Shown here piece after piece: positions 3,396-6,869 of a DNA stretch of 64,000 nt. Origin of the DNA: Snodgrassella alvi (lineage in GTDB: Bacteria > Pseudomonadota > Gammaproteobacteria > Burkholderiales > Neisseriaceae). Numbering within the stretch: position 1 is the stretch's first letter; each line of letters opens with the position of its first letter. The notes under the pieces are model-generated. The model was not told where the DNA came from. It searched no databases and saw only the letters and a list, made by a program, of their open reading frames with translations. Where the stretch lies: the NCBI RefSeq assembly GCF_002777745.1, contig NZ_MEIO01000026.1:1-64000 (forward strand), read 5' to 3'. The position numbers and the translations under genes were made by a program.

Positions 3396-4469
3396 TTAAA
3401 TTGATACAGACTGGCTGATACTGCTGTTTGTCACTGCCTGCCATGCAGCGGCAATCAGGCCGGCATCATTATTTTTTAATAATGCAGCATCTGATAACAT
3501 GCGCCGCCACTGGCGTGCACCATGCAGGCCGTGCATCAGCCCCAGATAATGCCGTGCCATATGGCGTAAAGAATTATCTGGCTCAGCCAGTTGCTGCTGC
3601 GTATAGTCGATTAACTGCTCAACCAGCGCATCGTATTCAACGGCAGGCTGCCTGCTGCCATAAAATTCAGCATCCCAACTGCGCATCAGCATCGGATTAT
3701 GATAAGCCTCGCGCCCAACCATCACACCATCAACATATTGCAGATGCTGGCTGATTTGCTCATTAGTAGTGACACCACCATTAAGAATAATTTCCAGATC
3801 AGGAAATTCCTGTTTCAGACGATAAACATAATCATAACGTAGTGGCGGAATATCACGATTATCTTTGGGAGATAAACCCTCGAGCCACGCATTGCGCGCA
3901 TGCACAATAAAAATGCGGCAGGCTGTTTGCTCGCGTAATGTACCCACAAAATCGGCCAGCGGCTGGTAGGCGGTTTCTTTATCCAGACCAATGCGGTGCT
4001 TGATAGTTACCGGAATGGATACAGCTTCCTGCATCGCATTCAGACATTGCGCTACCAGCGCAACTTCACGCATCAGACAGGCACCAAAGGCACCTTGCTG
4101 TACCCGCGGGCTAGGGCAGCCACAGTTCAGATTGATTTCATTGTATGCATAACCGGCAGCAATTTTTGCTGCCTGCGCCAAAGCAGCGGGGTCACTGCCG
4201 CCTAGCTGCAAGGCAATTGGCTGCTCCTGTGGGTGATAAGCCAGTAATTTATCGCTATTACCATGAATGATTGCATTGGCATTAATCATTTCCGTATACA
4301 GCCATGCGTTTCTGGAAATCAGTCTGGCCATATAGCGGTAGTGCCTGTCTGTTAAGTCCAGCATGGGTGCCACAGACAAGGTTCTTTTCGGCTGAGGGCT
4401 GTTATCAGGCTGACAACCACCACCTTGCACAGAAACATCTGTACTGCTTAACTGTTTACTTTCTTGCAT
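3396..4469 (-). CDS. dusA: tRNA-dihydrouridine(20/20a) synthase DusA
   Basis: FMN enzyme that reduces uridine 20/20a in the D-loop of tRNA. The TIM-barrel starts with [20 protein letters not shown] near residue 32. The active-site loop [19 protein letters not shown] carries the catalytic Cys in GAC, and [14 protein letters not shown] is the FMN phosphate site. The YHNP and HRIGLD motifs are DusA-type. At 357 residues it has a roughly 30-residue polar N-terminal extension, so a later start cannot be excluded; the ribosome-binding site of the ATG used is weak. Same strand as thyA-folA and possibly co-transcribed. A second family member, DusC, is at 44735. Confidence 0.93.
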
Positions 4470-4640: not shown

Positions 4641-6188
4641 TTAACGCAGTGGCACTTCAGACTTAATCAACCTGATTTGTTTCCTACCCTGTTTTTTCTT
4701 GATATGGTTTTGCAGCCATAATTCATGTTGTGCTTTGCAATTCGGACCTAAATAAATATTATCAATATAATCTTCTACATTAGTATATTCAACGTATAGA
4801 CTAGTAGTGGACTGGTAGTCTTGAGGTTCTACAATCTTATCATCTGCAATATGAGTGATATAAATCATACGGCATTCATCTTCGTCTTCGAAAGCGGCAT
4901 GTTTTATCAGACAGGAAATGGGTAAGACGGCCAAACTAAGTAATTGCTCCAAATTGGGTATCTTTTGCAATTCTTTGTTATTTAAAAGTTTACTCATTAA
5001 TTTTCTTATTATTTTTAAATATGTGCGAATAAATTTAATTTGTTTTTCTTCTTTTAATAGATTAACATATTTTTGCCGTTTATTGTCTATGTAAGAATGT
5101 TTGTTTTTTTTAATTAATTTATAAATTTTGCTTTCCGTTTTATTGTCTATGTAAGAATGTTTGTTTTTTTTAATTAATTTATAAATTTTGCTTTCCGTTT
5201 TATCGTCTATGTAGTTTTTTTCATCATACATCTCCAGAGAAAACGATTGTTCATTGCGTTTGGCTAGAGACATATATCCAGTTTTGGGGTCAAAATACAG
5301 GCAACGATATAAAGGCAGAGGATGAAGTGTATCGTTACTTTTATTTTCTGCTTGTATAGTTTCAAGTTTTATTTGTTTATTACCGACGGATATAATAGAC
5401 TCAATGCCCGCTAGTGCTATTTTATTCCTGGTACTGCGCTTTGTATCCAGATCAAAAAAATTTCGACTCAAAGCAATGCTTACGCCGGAGCCTGGGATAT
5501 TCTCTTCATTACCATATAAACGAAACTGATTTAAAGAATTATGATTGAAAGTAAAACTGGCTAAAAAGCTTTTAATTTCATTATTCGGATTATTGGTAAT
5601 ATTCAGCCAGTTGGTTAATACCTTATTTTCACTGGGATCATTCATAAAATCGACGATATTCAGCCGGAATTTACTGGGATTGCTTCCTTTAAGCAGATTA
5701 AACAAGACTGCCGGCTTGGTATAATGGGCAACGCGCCGTTCTGGCTCTTTTGCTTTTGTGTTATCATTATGTGAGTTTTTTAGCTTGAAAGAAACTAATA
5801 ATTTATCTTTTATATCATCAACTAACGTACTAATCTTCTCAATTTTATTAATTGATTTTTGTAATTTACTTTTCTTTGAACCAAGGCTAGGTTTGTTAGC
5901 AATTAGTTCTGATATTACTCTGGCGGAAACATAAGTATCAGGCTCAGAACTATAATATTTGACTTCATTATAATAATTTCGTGCCTTCTTGTTAATCTTC
6001 TTGTTAATCTTCTTGTTAATCTTCTTGTTAATCTTCTTGTTAATCTTCTTGTTAATCTTCTTGTTAATCTTCTTGTTAATCTTCTTGTTAATCTTCTTGT
6101 TAATCTTCTTGTTAATCTTCTTGTTCATCTTCTTGTTCATCTTCTTGTTCATCTTCTTGTTCATCTTCTTGTTCATCTTCTTGTTCAT
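4641..6188 (-). CDS. DUF2971-domain protein with lysine-rich tetrapeptide array (3' half of a split gene)
   Basis: A 515-residue frame. Residues 1-68 are 17 perfect tetrapeptides (six MNKK, then eleven INKK) encoded by 12-bp repeats. Next comes ARNYYNEVKYYSSEPDTYVS, which reads like the second helix of a TPR, then a DUF2971 domain from about residue 150: HYTKP at 155, NDPSE at 183-187, FEDEDECRMIYI and IYLGPN near the C-terminus. DUF2971 is widespread and of unknown function. Residues about 330-369 are a 20-residue tandem duplication. The ATG overlaps the stop of the upstream TPR frame (ATGA), but no ribosome-binding site is obvious inside the repeat. I infer that this is the C-terminal part of one protein whose N-terminus is at 6185-6466. 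The gene is more AT-rich than its neighbours. Confidence 0.7.
   Translation of the reverse strand: MNKKMNKKMNKKMNKKMNKKMNKKINKKINKKINKKINKKINKKINKKINKKINKKINKKINKKINKKARNYYNEVKYYSSEPDTYVSARVISELIANKPSLGSKKSKLQKSINKIEKISTLVDDIKDKLLVSFKLKNSHNDNTKAKEPERRVAHYTKPAVLFNLLKGSNPSKFRLNIVDFMNDPSENKVLTNWLNITNNPNNEIKSFLASFTFNHNSLNQFRLYGNEENIPGSGVSIALSRNFFDLDTKRSTRNKIALAGIESIISVGNKQIKLETIQAENKSNDTLHPLPLYRCLYFDPKTGYMSLAKRNEQSFSLEMYDEKNYIDDKTESKIYKLIKKNKHSYIDNKTESKIYKLIKKNKHSYIDNKRQKYVNLLKEEKQIKFIRTYLKIIRKLMSKLLNNKELQKIPNLEQLLSLAVLPISCLIKHAAFEDEDECRMIYITHIADDKIVEPQDYQSTTSLYVEYTNVEDYIDNIYLGPNCKAQHELWLQNHIKKKQGRKQIRLIKSEVPLR
5081..5213 (-). repeat. 60-bp tandem duplication within the DUF2971 gene
   Basis: 5081-5140 and 5141-5200 are identical over 60 bp, followed by a 13-bp partial third copy with one difference (5201-5213). 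It is in frame and duplicates the 20-residue peptide YIDNKTESKIYKLIKKNKHS. Confidence 0.95.
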
Positions 6189-6247
6189 CTTCTCTTCATC
6201 TTCTCTTTCATCCTCTCTTTCATCTTCTCTTTCATCTTCTTTTTTTT
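5985..6247 (-). repeat. 12-bp tandem repeat array (VNTR) encoding K-rich tetrapeptides
   Basis: On the plus strand there are eleven copies of CTTCTTGTTAAT (5985-6116), six of CTTCTTGTTCAT (6117-6188), one 11-bp unit CTTCTCTTCAT (6189-6199), then CTTCTCTTTCAT-type units at 6200-6211, 6212-6223 (one change) and 6224-6235, and a decayed unit after that. The 12-bp period preserves frame (NKKI, NKKM, KEKM in the minus-strand protein). The single 11-bp unit lacks one T of TTT and shifts the frame, creating a stop at 6185-6187. This is not a CRISPR: there are no spacers. Confidence 0.95.
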
Positions 6248-6466
6248 ATGAAAAAAATAAATATTAGCTAGATGGTACTGAGCTTTAGAGTAGACTAGCT
6301 GAGAATCACTTTCTAAAATATTTGAAAAAGACTTAATTGCTTTATTCAAATTTTTTTTACATTCATAAATTTGACCCAAATTAAATTGAGCCTTTGCATA
6401 TATCTCATTCCCATTATCACGTGTAATTTGCTTGAGTTTTTTAATCAACGCCTTAATCTTCTTCAT
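6185..6466 (-). CDS. TPR protein, 5' half of the split TPR-DUF2971 gene
   Basis: 93 residues with a good start (AGGGA seven bases before the ATG at 6466). Residues about 22-72 contain TPR-like helices: YAKAQFNLGQIYECKKNLNKAIKSFSNIL and then YSKAQYHLANIYFF, the first helix of a second repeat. The frame then enters the KEKM repeats and stops after MKRR at 6185. The matching second helix (KARNYYNEVKYY) lies in the next frame at the far end of the repeat array. The simplest reading is one gene broken by a one-base loss in the 11-bp unit. Phase variation, ribosomal slippage or a sequencing error remain possible. Confidence 0.65.
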   Translation of the reverse strand: MKKIKALIKKLKQITRDNGNEIYAKAQFNLGQIYECKKNLNKAIKSFSNILESDSQLVYSKAQYHLANIYFFHKKKKMKEKMKERMKEKMKRR

Positions 6467-6869
6467 TACTATCCCTGTTTTAGCTGGTTTCAGATTTTTG
6501 TTATCATACTTTATGTTGTTGACTAAAATAAATTTTTCTTGTTTAAGTTTAACGAAGAATTCTATTTAAAAACCATCTTCAAAACTGCATATGACTATTG
6601 TTGATATAGCAGGTTTTATCTTGCCTGAAATAAAGCACTGTAGCGTGGCAATTATTAATGTGTAGTTATATGTATAACTATATGTTTAGGTTAATTAATT
6701 GTGTGATTTGCTTATTTTGTAATGATATTTGTAATTAGCTGCAAATGTTGGTTTTAGCCATTGCAGGCGAATGATTGTCTCTCTAAGATAAGTTTTTGAA
6801 GGATAAAAATTTACCGGTAGTTTAATTTATTACTGTTGTAAACTGTAAACAAACAGAATGGAGATGGTT
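6467..6869. promoter_or_regulatory. AT-rich divergent intergenic region with a palindrome
   Basis: Region between the divergent TPR gene and the CsbD-like gene. It holds no gene that I can see. AGTTATATGTATAACT at 6664-6679 is an inverted repeat of two 7-base arms and could be an operator. No confident -35/-10 pair was picked. Confidence 0.3.

Follow-up and report, generated by a model that had tools for sequence, protein, structure and literature searches.

A gene of Snodgrassella alvi that joins tetratricopeptide repeats (TPRs) to a DUF2971-like domain is split into two reading frames inside an array of 12-bp repeat units, and the gene is probably a recent pseudogene, or nearly one, with possible leakage. 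Snodgrassella is a bee gut symbiont. The gene lies in a stretch of 64,000 nucleotides at the start of contig NZ_MEIO01000026.1, here called the window, and its features are collected in Table 1.

The two reading frames and the repeat array

In the ORF list, both reading frames are found on the minus strand, with the lengths given for them in the original prediction. The frames of ORF1 and ORF2 join inside a 257-bp array of 12-bp units. Within ORF2 the match to the DUF2971-like profile spans positions 4644-5741.

Table 1. Features of the split gene and its surroundings in the window.
Feature	Positions	Strand	Description
ORF1	6185..6466	-	93 aa; gene start and two TPR helix-A motifs; terminates within the array
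ORF2	4641..6188	-	515 aa; DUF2971-like domain preceded by a lysine-rich (NKKM/NKKI) tail and the last TPR's helix B
12-bp array	5985..6241	-	Tandem Repeats Finder: period 12, 21.5 copies, 96% matches; loop joining helices A and B in the last TPR
Frame break	6186..6196	-	sole 11-bp unit
ATGA	6185..6188	-	ORF1 stop (TGA) overlapping the first ATG of ORF2
A8 run	6240..6247	-	with the next base gives A_AAA_AAG (6245-6239) in the ORF1 frame
AGGGA	6472..6476	-	likely ribosome-binding site of ORF1
60-bp tandem duplication	5079..5213	-	2.2 copies at 98%, in frame; variable loop of the DUF2971-like domain
dusA-like neighbor	3396..4469	-	marker of the orthologous site in congeners

Read in coding order, the A8 run (6247-6240) is followed by three diverged 12-mers (6232-6197), one 11-mer (6196-6186) and then blocks of perfect units. 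These blocks consist of five copies of AACAAGAAGATG, eleven copies of AACAAGAAGATT and then AACAAGAAG, which leads into unique sequence. The seventeen perfect units reported in the original prediction are recovered when the array is counted in the ATG/ATT-AACAAGAAG register, and the 11-bp unit that it placed at 6189-6199 is the same 11-mer in a different register. Besides this unit, no further frame break was seen in the gene. The homogeneity of the blocks, five ATG units and then eleven ATT units, suggests successive and recent expansions. In 101 genomes, a 30-bp pattern of two units, allowing up to two mismatches, found 16 matches, all of them in this array, and the backward-pattern control gave no matches. 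The array is therefore not a chance product. A plus-strand ORF that crosses the array (5989-6267) was judged to be a mechanical by-product.

The likely ribosome-binding site and the start of ORF1 fall within 6476-6464 on the minus strand. In the Snodgrassella orthologs L033, L034 and L036, the counterpart of the AGGGA upstream of ORF1 is ACAGGATTAGTAATG. The start and upstream sequence common to these three orthologs and the window fall on the ORF1 side.

The GC content of the gene (4641-6466) is 0.31, compared with 0.42 for the window, suggesting either a foreign origin or a strong AT drift.

Orthologs in other Snodgrassella genomes

The TPR and DUF2971 frames had been predicted to derive from one ancestral gene, and the congeners agree with this. 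A single open frame of 758-1015 aa is encoded in six of the 13 congeners (G003, G006, G008, G009, G010 and G013), and in all six a dusA-like gene adjoins it. The two parts are thus not always separate genes in the genus, and the arrangement with an ORF1 stop and an ORF2 start is absent from all six intact orthologs. Because six congeners keep a single frame beside dusA without the array, we conclude that the window gene is one broken gene. Its frame is disrupted relative to intact orthologs, as in a pseudogene.

Single-frame TPR-DUF2971-like genes are found both in Snodgrassella (L033-L036) and in other genomes of the same bacterial family (L011, L018, L020-L027). They are whole, with the exception of L026 from G044, which is broken. 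L033-L036 have in common with the window the dusA-adjacent site, the domain order and, in the three compared, the start region. The intact Snodgrassella genes differ from the window gene in two ways: their TPR units are more numerous, and their TPR loops lack a 12-bp array.

In the remaining congeners little or nothing of the gene was found. G002 retains only a 45-aa C-terminal remnant next to dusA, and six further congeners gave no match to the DUF2971-like profile, with two of these genomes, G007 and G004, being 60% and 86% complete, respectively. The dusA neighborhood was inspected in five of the six, and short TPR-like matches are present in two of them. These matches, of 58 aa in G007 (L045) and 44 aa in G001 (L046), may be remnants of a lost gene. 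The genome of the window itself has no second copy at E <= 0.001.

The array pattern is absent from the six intact orthologs, and Tandem Repeats Finder detected no array with a period of up to 24 in L002-L007 at a score of 50. With a lower threshold, 2.6 degenerate copies of a different 12-bp unit were found in L035, in another loop. L033 and L036 both read AQYQLANIYFFHKNDSNKARDYYNKIKY without the array; at its place they have FFHKNDSNK, and L034 has FFQKNDNNK. As L033, L036 and L034 run through this region without the array, the array is an insertion that separates helix A from helix B in the last TPR. Its placement in the TPR inter-helix loop, already proposed in the original prediction, is borne out by the array-free close orthologs L033 and L036, as judged from sequence motifs and the ortholog alignment. 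The remaining three orthologs diverge more in this loop than L033, L034 and L036.

Number of TPR units

The original prediction missed a second change in the gene. Using a simple pattern, we counted 9, 9, 9, 12, at least 13 and 15 TPR helix-A motifs in the six orthologs, where the 13 is a lower bound from the incomplete L006 locus and the 9 of L034 include three of variant form. The window gene has two. In the orthologs the TPRs form arrays of 111-bp units. When aligned to L033, L034 and L036 as a chimera of the first and the last TPR, with a two-codon offset at the start, ORF1 matches at 166-170 of 213 bases; against one ortholog end alone it matches at 107-123. Without the two-codon offset the chimera matches at 131-135 of 216 bases, versus at most 123. 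Since the best match is to a first-TPR/last-TPR chimera, the TPR array has collapsed in frame. By these alignments, the TPR domain has fallen from the 9-15 units of the orthologs to two. ORF1 still exceeds the Pfam cut-offs of TPR_1 (30.2 bits, cut-off 27.8, E 3.6e-7) and TPR_2 (27.4 bits, cut-off 27), and TPR models are over the cut-off in all four orthologs tested.

Identity and constraint of the DUF2971-like part

The label DUF2971 given in the original prediction holds as a distant likeness and not as a direct Pfam match. ORF2 scores 16.8 bits against PF11185 (DUF2971), below the 22-bit cut-off. PF11185 has no match in the same genome at E <= 0.001 and none in four orthologs at E <= 0.1. 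A short match was obtained by profile-profile comparison of the 14-row family profile with four Pfam-positive DUF2971 members (E 1.6e-4, probability 50%, 89 columns). In this comparison an NDP motif and a CFS...Y..G block are aligned. The gene family differs from PF11185 in its sub-cut-off score, its long variable loops and its fused TPRs. The family profile (A2) consists of 14 chosen sequences; L010, L012 and L013 did not pass the motif filter, and L023, L025 and L026 are likewise absent from it. In the window row of this profile, about 20 residues are missing at the N-terminus. The DUF2971 profile (A3) consists of four of the 10 DUF2971 loci fetched, as the filter overlooked or misframed the others.

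Only matches far below the cut-off were obtained with NCBIfam, and a search of solved structures by sequence gave five weak matches, to nucleoside diphosphate kinases, with a best E of 0.018. No relative was found among viral contigs (alignment A1), and the domain of ortholog L036 has no match in the plasmid and phage collections. An anti-phage system was considered and rejected, as the single PADLOC match on parts of the window was weak (E 0.017) and belonged to an unrelated model. The description of the protein as an effector is left unsupported by these searches.

The near-invariant motifs of the family, HYT, NDP.E, LNQFRLYG and E.E.R, are intact in ORF2. The remainder of ORF2 forms a single open frame and can be aligned with L033 as far as its end, interrupted by gaps of 1, 1 and 37 codons. 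The 37-codon gap covers the 60-bp duplication, and the extra codons of this duplication are absent from all six orthologs. Pairwise dN/dS between the window gene and L033, L036 and L034 is 0.64, 0.55 and 0.37, respectively, and the values among L033, L036 and L034 are 0.24, 0.35 and 0.40. With three more distant genes the ratio is 0.21 for the window gene and 0.12-0.24 for its near relatives, at high dS. The window gene has 15 changes at 198 positions that are invariant in the other six genes. The same count gives 3-6 changes at 186-189 positions in five other genes and 12 at 195 in L007. A hand calculation of the synonymous branch gave about 0.17 for the window gene and 0.06 for L033, an approximately three-fold ratio, with 15 and 4 changes of their own. 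The changes in the window gene are thus roughly in line with its branch length and do not establish relaxed selection. The intact motifs, the open frame and dN/dS values below 1 together argue that the break is recent or partly tolerated. If the gene is indeed dead, its death is recent.

Repeats and damaged copies across the family

Damage to this gene is not confined to the window, a point also absent from the original prediction. The 14-row profile has a match in 31 of the 83 genomes surveyed, representing 5 of the 12 genera of the bacterial family. A split, stop-containing or remnant copy is present in six of the 31 matching genomes (G000, G002, G029, G044, G376 and G394), with the copy in the window among the six; the partial matches at contig ends in G026:C15 and G040:C295 were left out of this count. 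In G044 the C-terminal frame is lost via a 23-bp tandem duplication (L026, 2223-2269; L095, near 2358), and in G029 the frame is lost in an A-rich variable loop (L017 and L100). G376 and G394 have short matches containing stops. Four genomes of one genus (G026, G032, G035 and G040) each have more than one TPR-DUF2971-like profile match.

Repeats are likewise found in other members. Among the 26 loci analyzed with Tandem Repeats Finder, two others carry in-frame 12-bp arrays, L019 (KNEM, 2182-2220) and L027 (DQTN-like, 1426-1479), both in loops of the DUF2971-like domain. L014 has a short in-frame 24-bp array in a loop (1250-1299), and 12 of the 26 loci contain tandem modules of 105-111 bp. Given the repeats, damaged copies and absences across the family, the gene is repeat-rich, unstable and often damaged or absent.

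Alternatives to a pseudogene

The broken gene might still be expressed in two parts, a reading that we consider unlikely though the strongest of the alternatives, with the DUF2971-like part made either by reinitiation at the ATGA or by slippage at the A8 run. The ATGA brings the ORF2 start next to the ORF1 stop, as in translational coupling, and reinitiation may also use further in-frame ATGs in the following units. At the A8 run, -1 ribosomal slippage or base-adding transcriptional slippage would join the frames through a short acidic stretch. The run terminates in A_AAA_AAG in the ORF1 frame, placing a slippery site in the right frame ahead of the break as in programmed frameshifting, and within the run the ORF2 frame has already opened. 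A_AAA_AAG is among the A-rich heptamers at predicted frameshift sites in PMC3711429, which also describes transcriptional realignment sites as often being homopolymers of eight or more. In other papers, indels in an 8A repeat of M.HaeIII are bypassed at basal expression (PMC3812077), tssM of Citrobacter rodentium is rescued by an A11 run (PMC4256274), and in two insect endosymbiont cases the share of transcripts corrected at long poly(A) runs is 12-50% (PMC5009743); transcription errors restored no frame in PMC5574713. As in the poly-A rescue of tssM and of the insect endosymbionts, the A run here is upstream of the break and the shifted frame is open. However, the run is A8 here compared with A11 or longer in those cases (PMC4256274, PMC5009743), and it is not conserved. 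In the three orthologs compared base by base, its counterpart is A5 (L033 and L036) or A7 (L034), each then followed by C. Both A8 and ATGA are absent at this place from L033, L034 and L036, leaving no conserved recoding signal. Table 1 of PMC3711429 looks for a conserved site in a cluster of at least five frameshifted genes, but the six orthologs are unbroken. The sequence of the units itself accounts for the open overlap frame, and runs of eight or more number four in the gene where composition predicts 1.69 (P 0.09), which is no clear excess; we rejected both as evidence of recoding. In a further and quite improbable reading the repeat linker would be self-rescuing, and a growing array would tune the basic spacer that separates the TPR part from the DUF2971-like part. 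Each ATG-type unit provides a stop in one shifted frame, overlapped by an in-frame ATG (ATGA). Such a loss of frame within the ATG-type block would be met by an immediate restart, and the gene would alternate between one fused protein and two separate ones rather than between on and off.

Less probable than two-part expression is a sequencing or assembly error, in which case the unit would truly measure 12 bp and the gene would be a single frame that contains an array. The genome is a draft of 67 contigs, a near-perfect array of 257 bp is difficult to assemble, and the rest of ORF2 aligns in frame, all as such an error would have it. Yet the 11-mer is in the diverged part of the array, at a distance of 44-54 bases from the flank (6240) that should let short reads anchor it, and the count of perfect units is less certain than the 11-mer itself. 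The reading we consider least likely is a phase-variable switch, in which the population would change state at the 11/12-bp unit or at the A8 run and the unit number would tune a basic linker. The homogeneous blocks suggest recent expansion, and the in-frame loop arrays of L019 and L027 also count in favor of this reading. In the original prediction the 11-bp unit acts as an on/off break, but steps of 12 bp preserve the frame and the break is a single-base indel; we therefore rejected the array alone as a switch. The indel is in the short A stretch of one unit rather than in a long tract, and reversal of the 11-bp unit would require a rare precise event. Our comparison covers one genome per species. 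The array resembles the intragenic in-frame variable tandem repeats of bacteria in its unit, a multiple of three, its homogeneous blocks and its location in a loop, and differs from that class in having one unit minus a base. Neisseria and Snodgrassella belong to the same bacterial family. The simple-sequence-repeat phase variation of Neisseria, the topic of PMC5084427, likewise involves a repeat in a coding region. Slipped-strand phase variation requires a repeat unit that changes the frame; the 12-bp unit here is divisible by three, and slippage leaves the frame unswitched.

A possible history of the locus

A recent pseudogene, or nearly one, is therefore our favored reading, ahead of two-part expression, an error and a switch in that order. 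Its starting point is the dusA-linked TPR-DUF2971-like gene of Snodgrassella, which consists of tandem modules and readily changes its repeats. The TPR array fell in frame to two units, and in the last TPR a 12-bp microsatellite expanded in frame inside the helix loop. The loss of a single base from one unit, for which replication slippage in a short A run is the probable cause, split the frame. The comparisons show the single ancestral frame, the site of the array, the TPR collapse, the break, and damage to the gene or its absence in other genomes, whereas we infer in which order the steps came and that function was lost. The conserved start would now yield a TPR stub of 93 residues, and the DUF2971-like part would require either a restart at the overlapping ATG or a slip at the A8 run. 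Given this requirement, probably little or none of the DUF2971-like part is made.

In the literature searched on DUF2971 and on Snodgrassella TPR or phase variation, which is not a full test of absence, we found no description of this gene. The locus illustrates how a gene of modular repeats changes and breaks, through loss of modules, growth of a microsatellite in a loop and a single-base break, with the order of these steps inferred, and the intact orthologs at the same site allow comparison. If the broken gene is still expressed, the repeat linker could buffer the loss of frame.
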